Below, one piece after another: positions 13,247 through 50,891 of a stretch of DNA of 64,000 nucleotides. The position numbers and the translations under genes were made by a program. Below the pieces are notes generated by a model. That model ran no database searches. It was not told where the DNA came from and saw only the letters and a list, made by a program, of their open reading frames with translations. The DNA is from Myroides odoratus DSM 2801 (lineage in GTDB: Bacteria > Bacteroidota > Bacteroidia > Flavobacteriales > Flavobacteriaceae): NCBI RefSeq assembly GCF_000243275.1, contig NZ_CM001437.1, positions 1,753,165-1,817,164 on the forward strand, given 5' to 3'. How positions within the stretch are numbered: the stretch's first letter is position 1; each line of letters opens with the position of its first letter.

Positions 13247-14206
13247 TTATTCTTCATTAATTGTCTTACGTATATCTGTATACCTAAAATAGATAAATGA
13301 ATTCATTACGTTAAATTCTAATGGATTATCTTCAGTAGGACCTATCCCCAAGAAGAAAACATATGCTTCATATTCACTATCTTTTGTATCAAGTCTTAAA
13401 CGTTCCAAAGTACTATTAAACACATTATTATAATTATTTCTTATCCTAGTCACCATTGCTTTACTTAATCCTTTTTTCTGTAAGATCACTTTATACCCCT
13501 CATTTCCATTAGTTCTATAACGATATAATTGAAATTCCATTTTATCCTCATCTTCATATAATGCTCCACTTTTAATCAACTTTATAGGAGCATAAAAAAT
13601 TTTATTATCAATATAAGGCTTATGATTTTTACCTGACGTTATATGTCTAAATAAATATTTATATTCAATCTTATTACCTAATACTTCTATTTCTACATCT
13701 CTATTTCGTTCAAAACCGAGATAGAAATCAACTATTCTTTTAATTGAACTTACTTTACTATTCCGTTTCCCATCTTCTGGATCAAAAGACACCTCATCAT
13801 TATATCCAACTCTTCCCGCGCTAGTCGTAGTCCCTTCATCCTCGTTATGTTTCTTTACTTCTACTACACTTTCTTCAATATCATCAGAAACTTCGGGCAT
13901 TACTAATAAAGAAGGATACCCAACAACTTTTAATTCCTTAACTGTTAACTTATGGTTTTTAGCTTTACCTATAAGTCCATTTAACAGCGCTTCTTCACAG
14001 GCTTCAGCATGTTCTTGTCTAGGACTTATACTAAAGTAGGGTATTCTTTTGTTTGTCAATTTATAACTATTAGCTACAACTGCCACTCTACAATTTTCAG
14101 AAGGGCATTGAAACAATACATCATCTTTTGACTTATCTTTCATAATTGTAGGCAGATCTACCGCCCAAATGACTTCTTGAGTATCTACTCGGAATGCTCT
14201 ATCCAT
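13247..14206 (-). CDS. Unknown island protein with an N-terminal Cys/His cluster
   Basis: A 319-residue protein of unknown function. Residues 34-70 contain a C-x4-C-x26-H-x3-C pattern (C34, C39, H66, C70) with the intervening text PYFSISPRQEHAEAC, which looks like a small zinc-binding module similar in spacing to the N-terminal finger of CoiA-like proteins. This is a resemblance only. Residues about 115-155 are acidic, low-complexity and probably a flexible linker. The C-terminal half (about 160-310) is a mixed alpha/beta region with no motif I recognise. No signal peptide or membrane helix is visible, so it should be cytoplasmic. It lies 167 bases downstream of the unknown gene at 14374 on the same strand and may share its transcript. 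Unusually AT-rich codons suggest recent acquisition. Confidence 0.7.
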   Translation of the reverse strand: MDRAFRVDTQEVIWAVDLPTIMKDKSKDDVLFQCPSENCRVAVVANSYKLTNKRIPYFSISPRQEHAEACEEALLNGLIGKAKNHKLTVKELKVVGYPSLLVMPEVSDDIEESVVEVKKHNEDEGTTTSAGRVGYNDEVSFDPEDGKRNSKVSSIKRIVDFYLGFERNRDVEIEVLGNKIEYKYLFRHITSGKNHKPYIDNKIFYAPIKLIKSGALYEDEDKMEFQLYRYRTNGNEGYKVILQKKGLSKAMVTRIRNNYNNVFNSTLERLRLDTKDSEYEAYVFFLGIGPTEDNPLEFNVMNSFIYFRYTDIRKTINEE

Positions 14207-14373
14207 TATGTTTTGATCAAGTTAAGTTAATTATTTTGTTTTTCAACAAGCATGCCTATTTTAATAAAACTTACATTTTATTACATCCAGATAACTCGCA
14301 AAAAAAAACCTACTTATATACAAGACATTATATATAAAGTATATCAGTTGATTCTTTTTTCATTTTTTATTTT

Positions 14374-15831
14374 TTATTCACTCACATATAATATTTCCTC
14401 TTCAAACCAATCACTACCATTTTTAATGCTCTGTATTTCATAAATTCCATCCAACCTAAAATGTCTAATTTTACCTTTTCTTAACAGACAATTTGTTTCT
14501 AACAAAATACTGACACTACTATGGTGTAAAATTGTATTTGAAGTAGTCACCTTTATCTGTTCTGAATCAATAGATATACCAACCATATTATTATCTAAAT
14601 TTAATTTTATAGAGAACATATTATATTCACTAGATAAAATATCCTTTAATTTTTTTTCGTTATTATTCATCGTTTTTCTATTTAAACCAATATCTTCTAT
14701 CAATTTATTTTTATCTGACACAAATAAACTAACCTCCCGAACTTTAATTACACGTTTTGAAAAACGATTAAATTTATCTGCATACGAAATATAATAGTAT
14801 TCCCCCGCTTTAAATTCAAAACTAAATATACTAGTACTTCTTCTATTTAAATAATCAGGAAACCTAGTCCCCCAGAGTTCATTATCAGGTATCTTATTTA
14901 TTTGGCTAACTAAAATAGAATCTTTTTTATTTTTTAATAAATCATCCACTAACGCCATGTAGAAGTAATGCTTAAATGTAATATCCTCAATTTGAACTAA
15001 AGTGTTTCTAATTTCTGTTTTCCCAACATCCAAGCCAATCTCTTCTAATTCAAAAGGTTCCTTTAATTTAATCTGATGATAATAATTACTATCTATATAA
15101 CTTGAATAATCCTCTAGCAAATTTCTTTTATCTGAATTTTCTCCTACCTCTAAACCTAAATCAATTTTATAAAGTGTATCAACCTTTAGATACTCTTCAG
15201 AGTACGTTTTTAATTGAGAATTAAACCATTTACATTTAAACTCCAATAAGGGCTTACCTTCAATCTGACAAAATTTATTTTTTTCATCATAAAATCTATA
15301 ACCAATCACCGTCATTACTGGAGGTAAAAAATCTAAATGATTCGTAACTATCAATTCTCCATTATCTTTTTCTCTATTAATTTTCTCTTTATGTAATTCT
15401 ATATCTACAGATTTAAGAACCACCTTTACATTAAAATAATTACTTTTAATATGAGTCTCAATCTCTTTTACAGTTATCTCTTTATCTTGAGATTCTAATG
15501 TTTTCTTCTTATTTATTTCAAAATTAATATCTATATCATGAAGTAATTTTTTTCGCTCTTCTGCTAAAACTTTATCTTCACACTTTACTAGATCGAGACT
15601 ACTTATTCTTTTACTTTCATATTTACCAGTTTTTGAATTATAATAAACACATTCTAATATTTCACCTATTTTCTCTCTCGTTATGGAGTCAAAATATTTA
15701 TTTTCTGTTCGCTTATTCACAACCATCAAAGGAGAAGTATAATCTGCATATCCCCCAATTTTAATATTTTGATTTCTAGAAGTATAAGGATGCGTTTTAA
15801 AAACAACAACATCACCAAAGTTAAAATACAT
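14374..15831 (-). CDS. Unknown island protein with two YodC-like (DUF2158-type) modules
   Basis: A 485-residue soluble protein, very rich in Lys, Asn, Ile and Glu. Two segments share the pattern of small YodC/DUF2158-like beta domains. Residues 5-84 have GDVVVFK, then PLMVV, then LECVYYN, then SSLDLVKC. Residues about 165-222 have PPVMTV, then FKCKWFN, then EEYLKVDTL. The remainder (about 230-485) is unrecognised; a late RKGKIRHFRLDGI segment weakly recalls the end of WYL domains. Start ATG 15831 lies 39 bases from the -7 box of the divergent ncRNA/RT unit, so the two transcription units share a short control region. The function is unknown; a role in an anti-phage module is inferred only from the RT next door. 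Confidence 0.7.
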   Translation of the reverse strand: MYFNFGDVVVFKTHPYTSRNQNIKIGGYADYTSPLMVVNKRTENKYFDSITREKIGEILECVYYNSKTGKYESKRISSLDLVKCEDKVLAEERKKLLHDIDINFEINKKKTLESQDKEITVKEIETHIKSNYFNVKVVLKSVDIELHKEKINREKDNGELIVTNHLDFLPPVMTVIGYRFYDEKNKFCQIEGKPLLEFKCKWFNSQLKTYSEEYLKVDTLYKIDLGLEVGENSDKRNLLEDYSSYIDSNYYHQIKLKEPFELEEIGLDVGKTEIRNTLVQIEDITFKHYFYMALVDDLLKNKKDSILVSQINKIPDNELWGTRFPDYLNRRSTSIFSFEFKAGEYYYISYADKFNRFSKRVIKVREVSLFVSDKNKLIEDIGLNRKTMNNNEKKLKDILSSEYNMFSIKLNLDNNMVGISIDSEQIKVTTSNTILHHSSVSILLETNCLLRKGKIRHFRLDGIYEIQSIKNGSDWFEEEILYVSE

Positions 15832-15869
15832 AATTATTTAATTTTCGTTAGTAATCACCAAATATAATT

Positions 15870-15877
15870 TATATTTG
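15870..15877 (+). promoter_or_regulatory. -7 promoter box of the ncRNA-RT unit
   Basis: TATATTTG, a perfect TAnnTTTG element. It ends five bases before the left 13-bp repeat at 15882, so transcription should begin at or just inside that repeat. No convincing -33 TTTG element is seen. Confidence 0.65.
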
Positions 15878-15881
15878 TACA

Positions 15882-15894
15882 AACTGCGAATAAA
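15882..15894. repeat. Left arm of the 13-bp inverted repeat
   Basis: AACTGCGAATAAA, exact reverse complement of 16289-16301. No extension of the match beyond 13 bp on either side. Confidence 0.85.
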
Positions 15895-16288
15895 AGCGAT
15901 ATTTACGTTTGTGTGGATTAAAGACATTTTACATGTCTACTTTTTTGCATAGAGGCAATAAAGGCAACAAAATCATAATTTCTTTACAAGTCAAGTCTTT
16001 CTTGATATTTATTTCTTTACCTCTATAGTGGCATACATACCACCAGGAGAAGGAAGAACAAATCATAGATAAGATTTCTAGTAAAGTAACTATTGTGTCT
16101 ATAGAAAGGTCTTTCCCTAAATAAAGCTTTAGGAAGATTGATATTATTGTTATTATTAGCTCCATAATTTGGGGGATATATTTATAATTAGTTATTTTAG
16201 ATACAAAGATAATCGTCAGTCCAATGACCCAGTTACTGGGTACTGATCCAACCACTACAAGGTGTATGTAGTATCATTAGCGTTATTG

Positions 16289-16301
16289 TTTATTCGCAGT
16301 T
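16289..16301. repeat. Right arm of the 13-bp inverted repeat
   Basis: TTTATTCGCAGTT, exact reverse complement of 15882-15894, ending 13 bases before the RT start codon. Confidence 0.85.
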
Positions 16302-16314
16302 GATTTTTAAGATT

Positions 16315-17943
16315 ATGGAAAAACCAATTTGGCTCAAAGAAAAAGGCTATCTTCATCTATCACCTTCATTACAAATCGGCGAGGATTATGAAGAAATTGC
16401 CCAAATAATTCAAAATGAAAAATTTGTAAACAAGTATGCTTTCTATCCCCTAATTCATACCAACATAAAAGATCGAAAATATAAAAAAGGAAACTCTAAA
16501 AAGCATACTTTTGATGACAGAAGTCACACACATTACGATATCCAAACAAAAAAACCAATCAGAAATGCTAAAATTCGTCCTTTACACTATGCAAGTCATT
16601 TTGATGCATTAGTATATAGCTACTATGCTCACATCCTAAATGAAAAGTACATTAAAAAACTAGAGCAAGAACCTTTGTTAAATGAGGCTATTACTGCCTA
16701 TCGAAAAATATTAGTTAATAAAAATTCTACTAGTGGCAAAAGTAATATCCACTTTGCAAAAGAATGTTTTGACGAAATAACATTTAGAGCAGATAACTCA
16801 GAGAATGTACTCGTTTTGGCTTTTGACTTAAAGAGTTTCTTCTCATCTTTAGACCATAAATATTTAAAAGAAAGATGGGCCTGGTTAATTGAAGAGGAAA
16901 AATTACCTAAAGATCATTATAATGTTTTTAAATCTTGTACAAACTTTAGCTATGTTCTACTTGATGATCTTCGTCTAAAAAAAACAAAACAAGGGGGCAA
17001 AAAATTGGGTTTTGATGAGTCTAAACTCGCTGATATAAGAAAAAGAAGAGGGTACAGATCGTTCTTCTATGATAATTCAGATTTCCGAAATCAAATCAAA
17101 GAAGGGAATTTACCAATATATAAAAATCATTTTTACAGAACCTTACCTAATGGCAAAAAAATTAAAATGGGAATTCCTCAAGGGCTTCCTATAAGTGCCA
17201 CATTAGCAAATTTATACCTTTATGAATTTGATCTAACCATTATAAATACTATTGTAAAGCAACAAGGAGGGTTTTATAGACGTTATTCGGATGATATTTT
17301 AATAATTTGTAAACCAGAAGAAGAAATTCAAATAGAAGAATTTGTACTCAACCTAATCAAAAAATACCATATCAAGATTAGTGAAGAAAAGACAGAAAAA
17401 TTCTTATTTAAAAAAAACACTTATAACAAAGCTCAAGACATACGTTTAGAATGCTTTAAGATTCTTAATTCTTCTAAACACATTTCTTCTCATCTAACCT
17501 ACTTAGGTTTTGAGTTTAGAGGGTACAACGTTTGTATAAAGTCCCAAAATCTATCTAAATACTATAGAAAAATAATTTCCACTATAAAAAGAAGAAGTAA
17601 GAGAACAATAAAGCTTATAGATAGTAATCCTGAAACTAAGATTGCTTTATACATGACCCAACTAAAAAAAGTATATAACCTCCCTATAAAAAAACCAAAC
17701 ACTGACATACAAGAACTACGCACATTAAAACGCAAACGTTATAAACTAGTCAAACACTCTGAAGGCTTTTTTCATTTTGAACATTTCCCCATAAAAGATA
17801 AAAAACAAGCTAACTATTATAGCTATGTACTCCGTTGCTGCTCAACTTTTGAAACCAATAGTTTTAAAAAACAGGTAAGAAAAAGAAAACATATCGCTTA
17901 TACTGCCATTAATAAACATTTTACTATTAACACAAAAAAGTAA
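16315..17943 (+). CDS. Defence-type (UG/DRT class) reverse transcriptase
   Basis: A 542-residue RNA-directed DNA polymerase. ATG 16315 is preferred to the TTG at 16300, which lies inside the inverted repeat. The N-terminus KGYLHLS and the segment IRPLHYASHFDALVYSYYA (residues 87-105) are typical of single-gene 'unknown group' RTs that include DRT defence systems. Motif A is FDLKSFFSSLD with D171; GIPQGLPIS lies at 286-294; the active-site box is RRYSDDI with D326 and D327; motif E is YLGFEFRG at 396-403. The last 140 residues are basic and probably form the thumb and RNA-binding part. There is no maturase HNH, protease, nitrilase or integrase domain, and the retron-type VTG segment is not seen. 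The upstream paired-end ncRNA supports a DRT- or retron-like mechanism. Subtype (for instance UG2- or UG28-like) is unresolved. Confidence 0.88.
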   Translation: MEKPIWLKEKGYLHLSPSLQIGEDYEEIAQIIQNEKFVNKYAFYPLIHTNIKDRKYKKGNSKKHTFDDRSHTHYDIQTKKPIRNAKIRPLHYASHFDALVYSYYAHILNEKYIKKLEQEPLLNEAITAYRKILVNKNSTSGKSNIHFAKECFDEITFRADNSENVLVLAFDLKSFFSSLDHKYLKERWAWLIEEEKLPKDHYNVFKSCTNFSYVLLDDLRLKKTKQGGKKLGFDESKLADIRKRRGYRSFFYDNSDFRNQIKEGNLPIYKNHFYRTLPNGKKIKMGIPQGLPISATLANLYLYEFDLTIINTIVKQQGGFYRRYSDDILIICKPEEEIQIEEFVLNLIKKYHIKISEEKTEKFLFKKNTYNKAQDIRLECFKILNSSKHISSHLTYLGFEFRGYNVCIKSQNLSKYYRKIISTIKRRSKRTIKLIDSNPETKIALYMTQLKKVYNLPIKKPNTDIQELRTLKRKRYKLVKHSEGFFHFEHFPIKDKKQANYYSYVLRCCSTFETNSFKKQVRKRKHIAYTAINKHFTINTKK

Positions 17944-18153: not shown

Positions 18154-18903
18154 TCACAAAAACAATTGCTTTTCATAATAACTACGCACCGCCGTACTAT
18201 TTACCTTAGCGGGTCTCCATTTACCAAGTCCTTTTACGATGCGTTCTACTACATTTCTCACCTCTTCATTCGATGTATTACGCACTTTTACCTGACTCAC
18301 AGAACCATCCACTTCCACAATAAATTGGACATCAATATTTTTCATTTCAGCCAAAACTAATGGGTCTTTCATTCTTTCATAAGCTTGTATAAACTGTTTT
18401 TCAAAAACCAATACACCCGCTTCATAATAAGCTTGAGCATAAAAAGCTTTTACTCCTTTATAGGCAAGAGTATCAACAAGAAAATCAGCACTTTCAAACT
18501 TTTTTAACGTCAAAGGCAAAGTAAATGTACTTTCTATTTTTTTATCATTTTCAATTGCGGGTTTCCATTTTGACATCCTTCCTAAGACACGTACTGCTTC
18601 AGTTCCAATCCCAAAACCAGGATCTCTTAATATTTTAATATCTGTTACTCTCCCTTGATCTTCAACAGTAAACTGTAAAATCAATTGAAAAACGTTTTCT
18701 TCAAGTGCCTCCTCTGAGAAAATGAATCTCGATTTGAATTCCTGAATAAAATTGGCCATCCCACCTGGATATTCAGCTGGCACGGCAAAAATACTACAAG
18801 CTATTTCAGATTCAAGCTTCTCTCCTCTATTCTTCTGAGCAAACCCTTGTTGAACACCTAGCAACAGTAAACTAGTTACAATCAAAACAATACTTATTTT
18901 CAT
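18154..18903 (-). CDS. Secreted protein with two TonB C-terminal-like domains
   Basis: A 249-residue protein with a signal peptide (residues 1-22, ending GFAQ) and no further membrane helix. Residues about 40-135 match the TonB_C fold of Bacteroidota 'energy transducer' proteins: AEYPGGMANF, LILQFTVEDQGRVTDIKILRDPGFG and SKWKPAIEN. Residues about 185-249 repeat the second half of that pattern (VQFIVEVDGSVSQVKV, LGKWRPAKVN). Without an inner-membrane anchor or proline-rich linker it cannot act as a normal TonB; a periplasmic binding or scaffolding role is more likely. It lies between an orphan purF tail and the true purF terminator, which suggests it was inserted here. Confidence 0.75.
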   Translation of the reverse strand: MKISIVLIVTSLLLLGVQQGFAQKNRGEKLESEIACSIFAVPAEYPGGMANFIQEFKSRFIFSEEALEENVFQLILQFTVEDQGRVTDIKILRDPGFGIGTEAVRVLGRMSKWKPAIENDKKIESTFTLPLTLKKFESADFLVDTLAYKGVKAFYAQAYYEAGVLVFEKQFIQAYERMKDPLVLAEMKNIDVQFIVEVDGSVSQVKVRNTSNEEVRNVVERIVKGLGKWRPAKVNSTAVRSYYEKQLFL

Positions 18904-42710: not shown

Positions 42711-45700
42711 TTATCTATTTATTTGAATCCATCCTGTACGCATTTTAGCATTGGTTACTACCACATAGTAATACGTACCTGAAGGCAAATTATTTCCTCT
42801 TTTGTCTTTACCTGAAAACTCATCGGTATAATATCCATTGAAGTTAAATACTTCAATTCCGTTTCTATTGTAAATTTTCAGATTCGTTACTCCATAGTTT
42901 GATAGATCTAAACGATCATTAATCCCATCCCCATTTGGTGAAAATCCTTTCGGCAATGGACATTCTTCATACGTGACACGGAAACTAGATTGGTCTGTAC
43001 AATCTACCTTACCTTTACTCGATTTCGAATAGATATAGATCACCTGATCTACTAAAATCTGTTCTCCAGGTTGTAATTCACGTCCCTGTCCGTCTGGTTC
43101 TGTAAAGTACTTGTTTCCTCTTGGCAATAGCGGCAAGCTATAAAGTTCACAGTACATCACTTGATCTTCAATCTCAAAGGCAGGAATAAATTCCAGAATT
43201 TCGATCGTCAATTTACTTTGATACGCACATCCTTCTTTCACCCCATAAACATACAATTGATGCTTTCCTACGTTCTCAAATATATCGCCACCTTCCCAAC
43301 GCTCTCCTTTTCCATAAGGCTCTGTATAGTATGCTTCTCCTTCTGCTAATTCAGGCAGTACGTAGCTTTGACAAGCGAGAATAGGCTCAACAGTTGTTGC
43401 AGTCAATATTGTATTGACAACTAAAGAAAAACTACTGTAGGTGAAACAATGTGTGTATTTGTCCTCTAGTTTCACATATATTTCCGTTGGTTCTACCGCC
43501 GTTGTTGTATACGTTGTAGGCAGACTATTGATATTAGCTAATAAATCTTCCTCCGAAGCAAAATAGGTAACCAGTAAATCTTTCGCTTGTAAAGATCCTA
43601 TGACCTGTTTATCATTTTGAGCTAGATCATACGTATAGGCAAATCCAGGTTCTCTATGACAAGCATCTAAATTCATTGGTTTTGTTATCTGAGGTTTCTC
43701 TTTAATAAAGCGGAATTCTTTATCAATAATTTGCTCATTCCCATTACAATGTAGATACGTAATACGCCCTGTATAGGTTACTGATTGATCAATATTTACA
43801 TTAATATCTTGCTGTTCCGTCAAGAATTCTCCATCTTTTAACCAGCTAAATGTAGCGATTGATTCTCCACTTGGTACAAAACGCCAAGCCTCATTCGCTG
43901 CTGTCCATGTTCCCACATTTCGATTTGGAGGAACGACAGCTGCAGTTCCCGTTGCATTTTGAATTCCAACTACACCTAATCCGCCGTTGAAATTTGAACA
44001 ACTCGGTCTATTTTTAATATACACCTCAATAATATTTGTGCCTTCGTAAAGTACAATTTGAGATGTTTGCGTAGTTCCGTCCACATCATTAGCATCATAT
44101 GGACATCGAGCTGCATCAAATAATCCTAAATGATAAATATTAAAGACCAAAGCACGACAAGGGAAAGTTCCTAACACTTGGTAATTAATAGAATAATCAG
44201 CTGGTGAATTACGTGGGTACAAATCTTGCATCACACCAAAAATCGTATTGACATAAGGTATAGTACTTGCATTTGAACTATTCGTCGGCAATTGTACCGT
44301 TGGATTCATCGAATATCCCGAAGAAGAATTCGGGCTATATAGTCCATTTTCGGTATGTCCTTTTACACTAAATGTAATCATCCCATTAGTTCCAATCAAC
44401 ACTTTGTCATAAGACTTGCCATAAAAACAAAAATCAAAACCTAAATCAATCACATGAGACCAATAATCATCTTCCGTTAATGGAATTAAATCTCCTCCAA
44501 CAAATGGGAAAGGAGGTTTGTATTCAATGGCTTCTACAGTATAATCAGAAGTATCTTTGATATCAAAGTAGCTTGCCTTTAAATCAAGGTTTACGCTTTC
44601 ATCGTCACAAATAACATAACTTCCGTCTTCTGTTTGTGGCAAATCAATCGGCTCTACTTCAATATTAGCACATCCCGGTGGGTTAAAAATATTAAATAAT
44701 ACAGCAGGACTCCAAGTTCCTTGTTCACTATCCGAACAAATCGCGCGTACATAAACATGGTAGAAAGCGCCTTCAACGGCATCCCTGAATACATATCTCG
44801 GTGTATTCTCTACTCTAATTCCTGCATTTAATGGCGTTGGATCAGGCTGATTTGATTCTACAATATAAACCTCCCATTGCTGTTCTTGACCAAGAGGTGT
44901 CCACGTAATTTCAATATTGGATGAATTTGAAATTCTGACCGCTTGGACGTCAATCACATCTTTACAAGTAAAAGGTTTAATCCATAAATTATCAATCGCT
45001 GCAGGTGGTTGTTCTCCACTGCGATTATCTTGTTTCCATTCGAAGACAATGCGAACATCTTGTCCTGCGAAAGCACTAATATTCATTCGGGTTTGGAATC
45101 GCTGAAATTCTCGACTATTAAAGAAGCCTCGTTCATCGATAGCCACTGCCTGATTTGAGCTAGCAACACTTACCCCCGCTTCTGGGATATATGATAATGG
45201 AACAATCCAAGCCTTTACAAAATCTACTCCCACATTTTCTCTTGCTCTACTATCATATTGCTGTTCTCCTTGAGAACGCCAATCAAAACTAATTTCCAAT
45301 TGCTCTAGGTTGGCAGGAATATGAATGTTTTTATACGCATGTACAATTTGATTTTTATTGAAGGTGTATTTGTTACTCACCCCATTGTCATTTGAAATAT
45401 ACAAGGCTTTATTTCCGCCATTATTCACTGCATTTCCTATCACCCATTGATTCGGTAATGCATGTGTAACACCAATTTCCAATGTGTCTTCAAAATCTTC
45501 ATAATACGGTAAAGGATTCACCGAAACCAAAGGCGTTGTAGCAATAAAAGGTCCCGTCCATAAACTTGATTCCCCTTGGCTACACGCCGATCGTATCCAA
45601 ACATAATACATCGTACCTTCCTCTAAATTCGCAAACGTATAATTCGTTTCGGTCGTTGTATGAGTTGGAACTGTTGTTTCGTTCGCTCTTATATTCTGAT

Positions 45701-48700
45701 CCGTGGTCAAGAATAAATCATACCCGTTTTGTCCACTTTGTCCCGTCCAACTCACATCAAATCCTTGGTCTCTTATTCCTCCAATCGTCACTGCTGTTGG
45801 CGGTAAACAACTCTTGATAAAGAATTCAATATTGTCAATCGCAGCAGCTGGATTTTCACCCGTACTTGTGTCTTGCGTCCATTCAAAAATAATACGCATG
45901 GTACGGCCTAAGTATTCTTGAGCCGGAATTGTAATATGTTCGGTGGCAAAGGTTCTACTTCCAGCGTAGTATTCTTGACCTAATCGCACAGCACGACGGT
46001 TATCACTTTGTACAAGAACACCCGCACGTGGAGTATAATCCGCAGGAACAAACCAAACGCGGAAATTATCATAGCTTCCTTCTCCTAGATTACGCCAATC
46101 AAAATTCAATAACAATTCGATTCCCGTAGCTGGGATAGCAAAATCCTTGTATACATGAGAGGTTTGCCCTCTTCCTGGCACTGTTTGTAAGTAATTATTA
46201 CTTAATCCGTTATCATTCGAAATATACAAAGCCTTTGTTCCTCCATTATTGACTGCATTTCCAATAATCCACTTATTATGGGTGTCATTTTGGTATGCAA
46301 AACTTGGATTTTGTTCAAAATCTTCTGTATAAGGCAACGCCGCAGGAGTTAATGTTGTTTGTACAACAAGAGGACCTACCCAAAAACTTTTATCGCGTCC
46401 ACAAACGGCGCGAACCCAAAGGGTATAATAAGTTCCTTCCGCTAAATCTGGAAACACAAAGTTGGTATTCATCGAACGATAGTTTCCTGGTGTATCCGCT
46501 GTTGGAATTTCATTCGTTGTAGTTAAATATAAATCGTAAGAACGCGCTCCATCTCCTTCCCATGTTGTAGCAATTGTACGGCTTGTTATCGCACCTGCAG
46601 CAAAATTTCTTGGCGGACTACAAGTCACGACTTCTATATTCAGATTATCAATAGCTGCAGCAGGTTGATATCCGCCACTATTATCTTGTTGCCATTGAAA
46701 AACAAGACGATACACTTGTCCTTGAATGCCGCCTACCTCAACGACAAAGTTTTCTCTCTTAAATGCTGTTTGTTGCCCAAACATTTCATGTCCTACAGGT
46801 ATAGCTCCAGCTACACTTGTTGAAATCAATGTACCTCCAACTGGTGTATAAGAGGCTGGTACCAACCAAACGCGGAAGAAATCATAGTCTATTTCTCCTA
46901 AACAACGCCAATCAAATCCAATAGACAATTCGGCAGCATCTGTAGGAATTCTAAAATCTTTATAGGCATGTACCACTTGATCATACGCGGTATAATACGT
47001 ATTATTTGCACCTTGATCTTCACTGATGTATAATCCTTTTGTTCCTGATGCCTGCGCAGCAGTACCAATATACCAACGATTATTTCTATTTGTCGTAAAG
47101 TCAAAAGTAGGATTCGATTCAAAATCTTCTACATAAGGTAAATCAACCGGTGTATTGGCTAAGGTTACCTCTTGTGGTCCAACCCAATCGCTTTGATCCG
47201 TATTAGAGCAAGCAGATCTCACCCATACCCAATAGGATTGCCCTGCTGTTAATCCTGCAAAAGTATAAGAAGCAGTTGGTGTACGGTGTGTAGGTGCCGT
47301 TTCGCTTGTTGGTATAGGGGTAGCCGTTTGACTTAAAAACAGCTCATATTCTTGTACCCCTGTTACGGCTTCCCATTGCGTCTGGAATCCCTGATCCGAT
47401 ACGTTTTGTACCGTAATTGCAGTAGGAGCTCCGCAGAATGTCGTCGATAATGCTAAATTATCAATAGCGGCTGGTGGATTGTTTCCACTATATAAATCTT
47501 GTGTCCACTCAAAAACCAAACGCATGGTTTGTCCTGCATAGGTTTGTGCATCGATGTTTATCGTTTCTGTAGCAAAAGCAGTTGCATTACTATAGGTCGT
47601 TCTACCTAGGCTTATTCCTCCACTAGCATTTGCTGTTATTGGCACGCCTGCTTGTGGAGTAAATGTCACAGGTATCCACCATACTTTAAGCACATCATAT
47701 CGGTCTTCCCCTTTGCACATCCAATCAAACTGTAGACTTAAGTCAACTGCTCCTGTTGGAATGGCAAAATCCTTAAACACATGAGACGTTACAGGATGCG
47801 GAACATTTCCTGTATAAGCATGGGTATGTCCCCCATCATTAGAAACATACAAAGCCTTTGTTCCACCGTGATTCACGGCTTGTCCAATAAACCATTGATT
47901 GATGGTATCATTGATTATTCCGTACTCTTGTGCTGCTTCAAAATCATCTGAAAACGGCAAGTTTGCAGGAACTAAAGTCGTTTGTACCGTTAGAGGTCCA
48001 ATCCATCTTGAAGTCTCTGTTCCACAAGTTGAACGAACCCAAATGTAATAATTGGTCGCTTGATTTAAATTTTCAAATGTAAAAGTGGATGTATTTGAGG
48101 TAAAAGAAGCAACAGTTGATGCAGTAGGCGCTTCATTCGCTGTAGCCAAATACAATTCATACGCTTGTACATTGGTTCTCGATTGCCAAGAAGTAGTAAT
48201 TGTATGTGCTGTAAAAGCATCCACTTGTAACCCCGTAGGCTCGCTACAGTGAACAGGACTAATGACTACATTATCAATAGCTGCAGGATTTTGACGTCCA
48301 TCTCGCTCATCTTGTTGCCATTCAAAAACAACACGTACTGTTTGTCCTTGAAACTGACTCACATCGACATTCTTCGCAAAGGAAGTAAAGGTATTGGTTA
48401 AATATAGTTCTTCCGCATTGATTGCCAACGCCTGTGTCTGGTTTCTAATGGCTTCCCCTGCCTGTGGTAAATATGTATTGGGTACTAGCCAAACACTTAA
48501 ATAATCCGTAGGCTTATAATTGCCAATATTCCAATCATATCCTTTTTCACCTTGGGCACGCCAATCGAAACTTAGCGCTAACATATCTACGTCTTGTGGG
48601 ATCTCAATATTTTTATATGCGTGAATGATTTGACTTCCCTCGTAATTATACGTATTGCTCACACCGCCATCCTTCGTAATATAGAGCGATTTTTCTCCTC

Positions 48701-50891
48701 CGTGATTCACTGCATTTCCAACAAACCATTGATTGGGTTGAGCATGTGTAAATCCCCAATTTGGATTCGCCTCGAAATCTTCTGTATAAGGCAAGCTAAT
48801 ACTAGAAATTAAAGGAGTTTCCATGAAGTAAGGCCCCACCCAAGTGCTATTTTCCCCAGGTTGACAACTCGAACGAATCCACGCATGGTATTTCGTCGCT
48901 TCATTTAAATTCGAAAAGGAATAAGTAGTCTCACTTGTAGAAGCCAACGGAGTTGTTGTATCTGTTGGAATTAAGTTTAAATCTGTTGTAATAAAAACGT
49001 CATACGCTGTGGTGTTATTTGAAGCTGCCCAAGTAAGATCAAAGGCACCCGCTCTTAAATTGCTTGTACGCACCCCTGTTGGTGCTACACAATTGATCGC
49101 CGTAACGTTTAAATTGTCAATTGCTGCTGCAGGATTATTTCCTTGACTTTCATCCTGAGACCATTCGATTAGCAAACGCATCGTTTGCCCTGCAAAAGAA
49201 GCTGCGTCTAAAAGTACTTGTTCTCGTTGAAAATTTGCAGCGTTAGAATAGGCATTTTGCCCCACGCGAATCATAGCGCGATCTCTATCATTTATCTGCG
49301 TGCCTGCCTGAGGTACGAAGGTGATCGGTACCAACCAAACTTTAAAATTGTCATAAGAACCTTCACCCACACATCGCCAATCAAAAGCTATGGCTAATTT
49401 TAAAGCATCCGAAGGAACTATAAAGTCTTGGTATAGGTGAGAAAATTCTCTCCTACCTGTATTAGGATTATATTCATTCGATTGTCCTCCATCTTTGGAA
49501 ATATACAACGATTTACTTCCTCCATGATTTACAGCAGTTCCTACCACCCATTTGTTAACCGTACCATTGACGAAAACAAAGGAAGGCGCTCCTTCAAAAT
49601 CTTCACTATAGGGAAGGGTCTTCGCAATTAGTTGCGTTTCTACTTCTAGAGGACCAATCCAAATACTGGTTTCATCCTCACAGATAGAACGTGCCCAAAT
49701 AAAATAAGTTGTTGCTGGTTGTAATTGATCAATGATCAAATTATTCGTTGTCGCAGTATAGGTTCTCGCATTAGTACTAGAAAGAGAAGCCTCTGTACTC
49801 AGGCGAACTTCATATCGTTGATTGCTACTAGCAATCCATTCTAATTTCATTGATTCAGCTCCAATCGTGTTTAGCTTAAAATCCATGGGAGGAGCACAAG
49901 ACACTTGTTCCAATTTCAAATTGTCAATAGCTGCGGCTGGTTGAGCACCGCCACCACTTTCTTGTTTCCATTGAAAAACGAGGCGATATACTTGTCCACC
50001 CTGTCCTTGTACAGGAACGATAATAGTTTCATTCTTAAACACCGCATTTTCATGATAATATCGCAGACCAATTGGTCTAACCCCTGCTCTATTTGGGTCA
50101 ATTGGCGTACGAGCTACTGGTATATAGTCTTGAGGAACCAACCAAACACTCAAATAATCCTCTTCATGTTCCCCAACTGAACGCCAATCGAAAGAAATGG
50201 CAATATTTTCAGCATCTTGTGGAAATATAAAATCTTTATAAACATGGGAAACTTGATTTGAATACAACGCATATTCATTGGTTCTACCCTCATCTTTGCT
50301 GATGTATAACGCGTGATCTGCATTACTTTTTGCTCCACTTCCAATATACCATTGATTGGTTATATCATTGCTATATCCAACTAAGGGAGCCTGTTGAAAG
50401 TCTTCAAAATAAGGTAAAGAAACGGGAGTCATAGGCAAGTGAATAGCGAATGGTCCTGCCCAATTGCTTTGCTCATTAAAGCTATTTTCACAAGTAACTC
50501 TTATCCAAACATACACGTTGACCTGATTGGTAGGTAAATCCAGCGTTAGCGTAGCCTCTGTGGTGGTATGCGTTGGATTCATAAGTCCTGCTCCAGGTAC
50601 ACTCGTTGAACTCACAAAGAGGTCATAGGAAATAGCATTTGACATCGCTTCCCATCCTAAAGTATAGGAATCTGCAGAAACATTCAGCAGTTGAATACGC
50701 TCTGGTGAATAACAAAAAGCAAATGTCGGAGCTTCTGTGTGTTCCTTTGGTTTGGATAGTACTTCGACATCCGCTGTCTGAAGCGTTACTTTATCCTTAC
50801 TTACTTCTATATTGGCCCGTAGGACATAGCCCCACAAAACAAAAAAAAGTAACGTGACTAAAAAGGTATTTCTTACCTTTACCTTGTTCAT
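42711..50891 (-). CDS. Giant secreted adhesin-like protein, type IX secretion type B
   Basis: A 2,726-residue exported protein with an N-terminal hydrophobic signal. The body alternates eight fibronectin type III domains (each starting with a Cys-Pro-like boundary such as CAPPMDF, CVAPTGV or CGAPTAI) and seven choice-of-anchor-J/MAM-like domains, each opening LPYxEDFE and containing an ISFDWR-like and a PAAAIDNL segment. One FN3-plus-J unit is about 285 residues. After about residue 2190 come other beta-sandwich regions (ICDDESVNLDLKA onward). The last 90 residues (GFSPNGDGINDRLDL, then LKIYNRNGIEVF, then GTYYYVV) are a gliding-motility-associated type B sorting domain. The protein is therefore exported by the type IX system and probably acts in surface adhesion or substrate binding. 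It is transcribed alone from the TATATTTG box at 50915. Confidence 0.92.
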   Translation of the reverse strand: MNKVKVRNTFLVTLLFFVLWGYVLRANIEVSKDKVTLQTADVEVLSKPKEHTEAPTFAFCYSPERIQLLNVSADSYTLGWEAMSNAISYDLFVSSTSVPGAGLMNPTHTTTEATLTLDLPTNQVNVYVWIRVTCENSFNEQSNWAGPFAIHLPMTPVSLPYFEDFQQAPLVGYSNDITNQWYIGSGAKSNADHALYISKDEGRTNEYALYSNQVSHVYKDFIFPQDAENIAISFDWRSVGEHEEDYLSVWLVPQDYIPVARTPIDPNRAGVRPIGLRYYHENAVFKNETIIVPVQGQGGQVYRLVFQWKQESGGGAQPAAAIDNLKLEQVSCAPPMDFKLNTIGAESMKLEWIASSNQRYEVRLSTEASLSSTNARTYTATTNNLIIDQLQPATTYFIWARSICEDETSIWIGPLEVETQLIAKTLPYSEDFEGAPSFVFVNGTVNKWVVGTAVNHGGSKSLYISKDGGQSNEYNPNTGRREFSHLYQDFIVPSDALKLAIAFDWRCVGEGSYDNFKVWLVPITFVPQAGTQINDRDRAMIRVGQNAYSNAANFQREQVLLDAASFAGQTMRLLIEWSQDESQGNNPAAAIDNLNVTAINCVAPTGVRTSNLRAGAFDLTWAASNNTTAYDVFITTDLNLIPTDTTTPLASTSETTYSFSNLNEATKYHAWIRSSCQPGENSTWVGPYFMETPLISSISLPYTEDFEANPNWGFTHAQPNQWFVGNAVNHGGEKSLYITKDGGVSNTYNYEGSQIIHAYKNIEIPQDVDMLALSFDWRAQGEKGYDWNIGNYKPTDYLSVWLVPNTYLPQAGEAIRNQTQALAINAEELYLTNTFTSFAKNVDVSQFQGQTVRVVFEWQQDERDGRQNPAAIDNVVISPVHCSEPTGLQVDAFTAHTITTSWQSRTNVQAYELYLATANEAPTASTVASFTSNTSTFTFENLNQATNYYIWVRSTCGTETSRWIGPLTVQTTLVPANLPFSDDFEAAQEYGIINDTINQWFIGQAVNHGGTKALYVSNDGGHTHAYTGNVPHPVTSHVFKDFAIPTGAVDLSLQFDWMCKGEDRYDVLKVWWIPVTFTPQAGVPITANASGGISLGRTTYSNATAFATETINIDAQTYAGQTMRLVFEWTQDLYSGNNPPAAIDNLALSTTFCGAPTAITVQNVSDQGFQTQWEAVTGVQEYELFLSQTATPIPTSETAPTHRTPTASYTFAGLTAGQSYWVWVRSACSNTDQSDWVGPQEVTLANTPVDLPYVEDFESNPTFDFTTNRNNRWYIGTAAQASGTKGLYISEDQGANNTYYTAYDQVVHAYKDFRIPTDAAELSIGFDWRCLGEIDYDFFRVWLVPASYTPVGGTLISTSVAGAIPVGHEMFGQQTAFKRENFVVEVGGIQGQVYRLVFQWQQDNSGGYQPAAAIDNLNIEVVTCSPPRNFAAGAITSRTIATTWEGDGARSYDLYLTTTNEIPTADTPGNYRSMNTNFVFPDLAEGTYYTLWVRAVCGRDKSFWVGPLVVQTTLTPAALPYTEDFEQNPSFAYQNDTHNKWIIGNAVNNGGTKALYISNDNGLSNNYLQTVPGRGQTSHVYKDFAIPATGIELLLNFDWRNLGEGSYDNFRVWFVPADYTPRAGVLVQSDNRRAVRLGQEYYAGSRTFATEHITIPAQEYLGRTMRIIFEWTQDTSTGENPAAAIDNIEFFIKSCLPPTAVTIGGIRDQGFDVSWTGQSGQNGYDLFLTTDQNIRANETTVPTHTTTETNYTFANLEEGTMYYVWIRSACSQGESSLWTGPFIATTPLVSVNPLPYYEDFEDTLEIGVTHALPNQWVIGNAVNNGGNKALYISNDNGVSNKYTFNKNQIVHAYKNIHIPANLEQLEISFDWRSQGEQQYDSRARENVGVDFVKAWIVPLSYIPEAGVSVASSNQAVAIDERGFFNSREFQRFQTRMNISAFAGQDVRIVFEWKQDNRSGEQPPAAIDNLWIKPFTCKDVIDVQAVRISNSSNIEITWTPLGQEQQWEVYIVESNQPDPTPLNAGIRVENTPRYVFRDAVEGAFYHVYVRAICSDSEQGTWSPAVLFNIFNPPGCANIEVEPIDLPQTEDGSYVICDDESVNLDLKASYFDIKDTSDYTVEAIEYKPPFPFVGGDLIPLTEDDYWSHVIDLGFDFCFYGKSYDKVLIGTNGMITFSVKGHTENGLYSPNSSSGYSMNPTVQLPTNSSNASTIPYVNTIFGVMQDLYPRNSPADYSINYQVLGTFPCRALVFNIYHLGLFDAARCPYDANDVDGTTQTSQIVLYEGTNIIEVYIKNRPSCSNFNGGLGVVGIQNATGTAAVVPPNRNVGTWTAANEAWRFVPSGESIATFSWLKDGEFLTEQQDINVNIDQSVTYTGRITYLHCNGNEQIIDKEFRFIKEKPQITKPMNLDACHREPGFAYTYDLAQNDKQVIGSLQAKDLLVTYFASEEDLLANINSLPTTYTTTAVEPTEIYVKLEDKYTHCFTYSSFSLVVNTILTATTVEPILACQSYVLPELAEGEAYYTEPYGKGERWEGGDIFENVGKHQLYVYGVKEGCAYQSKLTIEILEFIPAFEIEDQVMYCELYSLPLLPRGNKYFTEPDGQGRELQPGEQILVDQVIYIYSKSSKGKVDCTDQSSFRVTYEECPLPKGFSPNGDGINDRLDLSNYGVTNLKIYNRNGIEVFNFNGYYTDEFSGKDKRGNNLPSGTYYYVVVTNAKMRTGWIQINR

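Follow-up and report, generated by a model that had tools for sequence, protein, structure and literature searches.

We have analyzed a stretch of 64,000 nucleotides of the Myroides odoratus DSM 2801 genome (the window), which contains a reverse transcriptase (RT) gene preceded by a proposed non-coding RNA (ncRNA) of about 420 nt. Taken as a whole, the locus is best explained as a divergent DRT2 anti-phage system, whose neo gene would be made by concatenation. We give this interpretation a probability of about 0.8. Judging from the sequences, the system appears to be ordinary in kind, a DRT2 with neo, and new in variant: its jump motifs would be different, its repeat about double in length, its regulator-like partner constant and its cassettes exchangeable.

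The system used for comparison is Klebsiella DRT2 (KpnDRT2). According to two reports (PMC11100668, PMC12039810), the template of its RT is bounded by two ACA motifs and is copied repeatedly. The resulting repeats contain a stop-free antisense ORF (neo), and each joint between them forms a promoter. The Tang preprint describes DRT2 without further protein genes; it also calls Neo annotation "more challenging" in divergent DRT2 clades, where the mechanisms may differ. The system in the window resembles KpnDRT2 in several respects: a UG2 RT lies directly behind an ncRNA, a predicted template is found between two short matching motifs, and the predicted antisense unit is divisible by three, lacks stops and gives a Neo protein with a hydrophobic bias. 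Other features differ. The RT has 542 amino acids here and 425 in KpnDRT2, the ncRNA has about 420 nt versus 281 nt, and the predicted repeat has 234 nt (78 codons) versus 120 nt (40 codons). In place of ACA-1 and ACA-2, the window would have ATAAT, and its relatives would use TTTA-like or ATT motifs. A WYL-YodC gene accompanies the system, whereas KpnDRT2 has no further protein genes, and the promoter found across the joint in KpnDRT2 has no detected equivalent at the seam in the window. DRT9 and DRT10 likewise combine an RT with an ncRNA and make homopolymer or tandem-repeat DNA, according to partial accounts of these systems, while the RT described here is Drt2 by profile and its predicted repeat is protein-coding.

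The reverse transcriptase

The RT gene (16315..17943, plus strand) codes for a divergent DRT2 (UG2) enzyme, as judged by profile and by nearest solved structure. Drt2 is the best of 29 PADLOC families (E 1.6e-126, while the best family other than Drt2 gives 1.6e-23), and the nearest solved structures are Drt2 chains (PDB 9c0i, E 1.6e-36). The NCBIfam equivalog for Drt2, NF041746, gives 306.4 bits, under its curated cut-off of 390 bits: the enzyme is therefore a divergent member of the family. An earlier note, made from the sequence alone, had called the system retron-like and of unassigned type. Neither description agrees with these results. The best retron RT model listed by PADLOC has an E value of only 4.4e-9, far weaker than that of Drt2. 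The same note had also placed the RT close to the class 2 UG enzymes, without a clear retron VTG segment, and here the profile search bears it out. A comparison of the window with Rfam gave nothing at gathering thresholds, which says little here on msr-msd. The YSDD (as RRYSDD), GIPQG and FDLKSFFSSLD motifs that had been reported are all found in the RT, and both D326 and D327 are invariant in 18 aligned RTs.

A tree of 51 related RTs places the enzyme in a well-supported Bacteroidota clade, which we call clade W; its closest companions are two Myroides records, with 80-81% identity. This tree is not a test of family, because it is made up only of this RT's own hits. Among viral contigs, 10 stretches matched a pattern and none of the 10 encoded a relative. 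One MAG contig (L008, 3222-4274) has a DRT2 RT with only 350 amino acids before a stop, in spite of a tblastn match covering residues 1-536 of the query; this corresponds to either a sequencing error or decay.

The ncRNA and its end helix

The -7 box of the proposed ncRNA promoter, TATATTTG, is found at 15870..15877 on the plus strand. A box of the form TAnnTTTG is present in 34/34 loci, the window included, at 60-135 nt ahead of the 5' seam motif. After a TACA spacer (15878-15881, plus strand), the ncRNA would start with the 5' arm of its end helix P1, AACTGCGAATAAA (15882..15894, plus strand), and it would end with the 3' arm, TTTATTCGCAGTT (16289..16301, plus strand). The two arms form a perfect 13-bp inverted repeat, and the ATG of the RT, at 16315, is 13 bases past the second arm. 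The elements which had been pointed out before are all present in the sequence. The lack of a convincing plus-strand gene in the approximately 420 nt was also noticed correctly: the coding strand is the minus strand. Its reading corresponds to the predicted neo repeat, which the earlier note missed.

When the 471-nt segment is shuffled 2000 times, 0.6% of the results contain some perfect 13-bp inverted repeat, and the one described here is the only one in the whole window with arms 250-500 apart. Nevertheless, 7/20 block-shuffled windows also contain one such repeat, so the repeat alone is weak evidence. The evidence that decides comes from related loci, which were gathered by contig and genome searches; 34 loci of clade W were used, including the window. 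The mean duplex energy of the end helix in these loci is -20.4 kcal/mol with their own arms and -11.2 with swapped arms, and none of 5000 arm permutations was as low in energy as the own arms. This run used a wrong arm start for the window, and apparently also for L064 and L065, which weakens the result rather than helping it. Since the arms covary across the 34 homologous loci, we take it as settled, at the level of sequence comparison, that the inverted repeat forms an RNA helix. Arm swapping took the place of RNAalifold because the P1 arms are poorly aligned; with a split alignment, RNAalifold recovers a single stem, hairpin H2.

The ends of the ncRNA are conserved in the 34 loci and the middle is variable. 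The conserved 5' and 3' blocks and the covariation of the end helix agree with the structured ncRNA directly upstream of the RT that had been proposed, and the conservation in homologous loci on which this proposal depended was looked for and found. On the 5' side there is a hairpin H1 (AGACAT-TTTAC-ATGTCT, 15922..15938, plus strand), seen by eye in the sequence and in the alignment. It is followed by hairpin HT (CTTT...AGAG, 15940..15954, plus strand), before the predicted template, whose arms vary among relatives while keeping their complementarity, also by eye. The 3' scaffold includes the conserved hairpin H2, TGACCCAGTTACTGGGTA (16225..16242, plus strand). A closing helix might be formed by GGATT (15915..15919, plus strand) and GATCC (16245-16249); the pairs proposed for relatives are GGATC/GATCC, GGAAT/ATTCC and GATAA/TTATC, all assigned by eye.

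The predicted neo repeat

Two ATAAT motifs are found between these hairpins. The seam analysis suggests that the one at 16209..16213 (plus strand) is the 3' jump motif, where reverse transcription would start, an analogue of ACA-2. The other one, at 15975..15979 (plus strand), would be the 5' jump motif and the end of the template, an analogue of ACA-1; in this case the cassette breakpoints in 3/7 pairs of relatives, described below, point to the equivalent motif. When 15975-16208 is joined at the two motifs, the 234-nt unit, repeated head to tail, gives a stop-free ORF in the minus strand, with 78 codons per repeat and an ATG at 16165 in the window's predicted repeat. The part of neo which is visible in the genome is a 78-amino acid ORF with a stop (15929..16165, minus strand), of which 15929-15974 is outside the predicted template.

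An endless ORF at the seam defined by a shared motif is found in 28/34 loci of clade W, including the window. Only 8.0/34 are expected with other seams, and 300,000 simulations reach 19 at most. The motifs are TTTA, ATT or ATAAT. The 5' border follows the hairpin after H1, and the 3' motif is 14-18 nt before H2 in 34/34 loci. The choice of these motifs was made by eye: an earlier candidate, the ACT that follows H1, was abandoned after giving 3/33 endless loci, and the new seam had already been seen as open in three loci, including the window, before the 34 loci were counted. Nine loci fetched later gave 8/9 endless frames, or 9/9 after the motif of L088 was corrected by one base. They are not a blind test, because five of them (L084, L086, L087, L093 and L094) were already known to be endless. 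An automatic k-mer seam finder gave 19.8/32 endless loci versus 7.1 expected, and 4.8/10 versus 2.4 in the later loci: it beats its null, yet it works only partly and is far from perfect.

Minus-strand ORFs starting with ATG in the template region are longer than in shuffled sequences (Fisher p 9e-27), and those of the plus strand are not (p 0.08); this test, with 33 loci, used the first, larger template, and the loci are related and so not independent. L048 was omitted from it and from the count of the first seam; L013, L048 and L065 were omitted from the promoter test at that seam. The antisense ORF has a pN/pS of 0.181/0.303, only moderately lower than one. The mean hydrophobicity of Neo is 0.89, versus 0.16 for other frames, and Neo is the most hydrophobic of the six frames in only 10/28 loci. 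On these sequence grounds, the joint in the window is likely to be at 15975/16208, which is not proof to the base.

Other clades

Clades A, D, E and F have other matching motifs: GTA, ATACC, ATTC and ATTT, respectively. In 25/26 of their loci the ORF is endless and the unit length is a multiple of three. For the five clades together, 53/60 loci are endless. The expected number is 16.4 when both ends are shifted within 20 nt, and the average is 3.3 when the units are shuffled at constant length. In 21/60 loci there is an endless frame in the plus strand as well. As this search for motif pairs finds 53/60 Bacteroidota loci stop-free, the hidden gene is probably a general mechanism, bound neither to ACA nor to sigma70.

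A Kpn-like control from Aliivibrio (L014) shows the published pattern, with an ACA seam and an endless unit of 117 nt; its seam reads TTGACA-N17-TATGCT, by eye. In Pandoraea (L015), one of 15 ACA pairs is endless, with 120 nt. The 60-locus count includes 10/12 loci of clade A; of the other two, L025 is endless as well, and L027 is endless only after its motif is shifted by one base. Rows which correspond to the same place as another locus were dropped (L001, L020, L055-L057, L062, L067, L068, L085, L090, and L016, which is L040), together with L091 (99% identical to L013), L096 (a fragment) and L019 (a weak hit). No seam was assigned to L017, L039, L042, L051, L053 and L054, and L018, with a rough seam, is not endless.

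Seven of the 60 loci are not endless. One of them, L028, belongs to clade A. The others are six Chryseobacterium loci (L009, L010, L066, L069, L070 and L071), whose unit length, 190 or 196 nt, is in both cases a multiple of three plus one. They have no endless joint within 45 nt of the predicted position on the 5' side or within 30 nt on the 3' side. The ORF crosses the joint once and stops some way past the next start codon, giving 68-73 amino acids before the stop. Either Neo became finite in these loci, or their template is organized otherwise.

Promoters at the repeat joint

In clades D and E, the joint brings TTTG to a distance of 20 nt ahead of a -7-like box in 11/12 loci. Joint promoters with 9-10/10 matches are found in 10/12 loci of these clades, versus 6-7 in genome order. 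The seam promoter search gave nothing significant in clade A and one significant case out of 4 in clade F. In the window, a -7 box, TATCTTTG, spans the joint, and no -33 box is found at 19-21 nt. The best promoter score in the seam region is 8/10 (p 0.15), in a position wholly after the seam. Only 5/34 loci of clade W (L002, L011, L013, L064 and L065) have a 9/10 match in the region searched upstream of the start, so that we regard a seam promoter of the Bacteroidota kind as not shown for this clade. Some seams recall a late promoter of the T4 type, a likeness which we also reject as too loose.

Two back-to-back -7 boxes, CAAATATAA/TTATATTTG, form a palindrome at 15859-15877, between the ncRNA and the WYL-YodC gene. 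For this reason the promoters of both may share one control site.

Apparent cassette exchange between relatives

Some closely related loci have different neo cassettes. The RTs of L074 and L075 are 95% identical in their first 330 residues and their WYL-YodC genes are 99% identical in DNA, while the score of their neo units is little above that of shuffled sequences (z 3.1). The cassettes also differ between L086 and L089, whose RTs are 96% identical, and between L002 and L003 (z 0.8), with 89% identity in the RT gene and 95-96% in the flanks. Each cassette type of the L074/L075 and L086/L089 pairs, assigned by eye, recurs in loci with an RT identity of only 68-73%.

There are 3/7 pairs (L074/L075, L086/L089 and L087/L075) in which the homology breaks off at +2 of the 5' motif and sets in again at +0 of the 3' motif. 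The borders are blurred in the other 4/7 pairs, from +7 to +11 on the 5' side and from -12 to -31 on the 3' side. As there are relatives in common among the three sharp pairs, one or two events may account for all of them. As homology breaks at the predicted jump motifs, the neo template seems to be exchanged in some relatives as a cassette bounded by them. Neither cassette exchange nor a Bacteroidota Neo is mentioned in the titles and abstract openings of the literature covered.

The WYL-YodC partner and the possible mobility of the system

A gene coding for a protein of 485 amino acids (14374..15831, minus strand) is divergent from the ncRNA. The protein matches the PADLOC family RTasWYL-YodC (E 1.5e-96, residues 2-471), for which the library states no function. 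Here this class is tied to a single DRT2 clade: according to tblastn, it is found beside the ncRNA, on the opposite strand, in 34/34 loci of clade W, including the window. Clade A has weak hits in 5/12 loci, in either orientation, and there are none in the other loci of the survey, many of which had a flank of only 1.5 kb. Among 13 homologues of the partner, Pfam detects WYL in one (E 2.8e-9) and DUF2158/YodC in three (best E 0.014), and the fold predicted for the partner would agree with a WYL/SH3-like part. The literature search gave no match on UG2 with WYL or YodC, and none on WYL-YodC among the matches listed. We suggest, speculatively, that this protein probably controls or triggers the system.

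The neighbours of the module in the window are presumably superoxide dismutase-, transporter- and PurF-like genes, identified by eye. In a relative, G1375, the module is absent and about 0.4 kb separates the genes which flank it in the window. The flanking transporter is present in 2/31 genomes, G1375 and the window's own, and two Myroides records have the module without these neighbours within about 6 kb. The module looks like a mobile island, since it is absent between the flanks in G1375 and has different neighbours elsewhere: when 13247-17943 of the window and L083 are compared with G1375, the uninterrupted neighbours in this genome look like an empty site. The gene at 18154-18903 of the window has no hit in G1375. 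Another gene, at 13247-14206 (minus strand), has a weak but nearly full-length match to PD-Lambda-4_B of PADLOC (E 1.6e-9). A 66% identical copy is found beside the L003 system and in no other surveyed locus, many of them with short flanks. By far the longest ORF of the window, with 2726 amino acids, is at 42711-50891 (minus strand).

Proposed mechanism and alternatives

We propose that transcription from the promoter at 15870 yields an ncRNA of about 420 nt with paired ends, a pairing which is backed by covariation. We infer every step past this transcription. By analogy with DRT2, the RT encoded behind the ncRNA would bind it, and on infection it would copy from 16208 down to 15975. At the ATAAT in 15975, re-annealing to the ATAAT in 16209 and renewed copying would produce a head-to-tail array of 234-nt DNA repeats. 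In this array, the strand complementary to the ncRNA would be stop-free, with 78 codons per repeat, as obtained in silico for the window joint. If Klebsiella DRT2 is taken as a guide, the resulting Neo, a rather hydrophobic repetitive protein, would stop the growth of the infected cell. The sequences of some relatives suggest that the neo template is an exchangeable cassette between jump motifs. The divergent WYL-YodC protein probably controls or triggers the system, although this is speculative.

An unlikely alternative is that the template ends at the ACT after H1, with a longer repeat (272 nt in the window). Each copy would then be a small gene ended by a stop, with a promoter placed upstream only by concatenation. 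The TTTACT adjacent to H1 does resemble the TTTAnT motif on the 3' side, the ORFs stop before the ACT seam or just past it in 30/33 loci, and there are a few good promoter scores, such as TTTA-N19-TATCTTTG in the window (9/10, p 0.023). However, the scores of 31 loci at this seam are not above those of shuffles (Fisher p 0.20), and 23/33 unit lengths are not divisible by three. Only 3/33 loci are endless at the ACT seam, versus 28/34 at the later one, clade A is endless with an equivalent later seam, and the sharp cassette swaps have their breakpoints at the later seam instead of at ACT. We have dropped the ACT template, because the other clades, the corrected seam and the cassette breakpoints are all against it.

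The minus-strand ORF might also be an ordinary gene, coding for a hydrophobic toxin-like protein, with the ncRNA as its antisense antitoxin and the RT as a separate element. In type I toxin-antitoxin pairs, a toxin gene is accompanied by an antisense RNA antitoxin, a layout which would be shared here, and the genome does contain a complete ORF with an ATG and a stop. Such a gene should not need a frame which remains stop-free through the later seam (28/34 loci), nor a unit divisible by three, and no minus-strand -33/-7 promoter appears in genome order (mean 6.6/10, Fisher p about 1, 31 loci), which makes this explanation quite improbable. There is very little chance that the system is a retron or retron-like, with an ncRNA giving a non-coding msDNA. 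The paired ends of the ncRNA recall the a1/a2 repeats of retrons, and it precedes the RT, but the retron model of 4.4e-9 is far behind Drt2, also the nearest structure, and the coding seam would be left unexplained. The interpretation that we prefer remains a divergent DRT2 with a neo made by concatenation.

A broader proposal, for which we see even odds, is that DRT2 acts as a gene assembler in the Bacteroidota branch described here: one kind of RT, an RNA scaffold and a WYL-YodC regulator would be combined with unrelated Neo cassettes, which would come and go by recombination at the jump motifs of the RT. Among its lineages, at least that of the six Chryseobacterium loci would have a finite Neo of 68-73 amino acids which still needs the joint.

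The reading by motif pairs yields joints, repeat lengths and proteins which are concrete enough to be tested. Through its constant WYL-YodC partner, the system also gives access to the question of how DRT2 is triggered by phage infection. If cassettes are exchanged at the jump motifs, this would be natural evidence for the borders of the template, and the effector would evolve like an immunity allele, apart from the enzyme.
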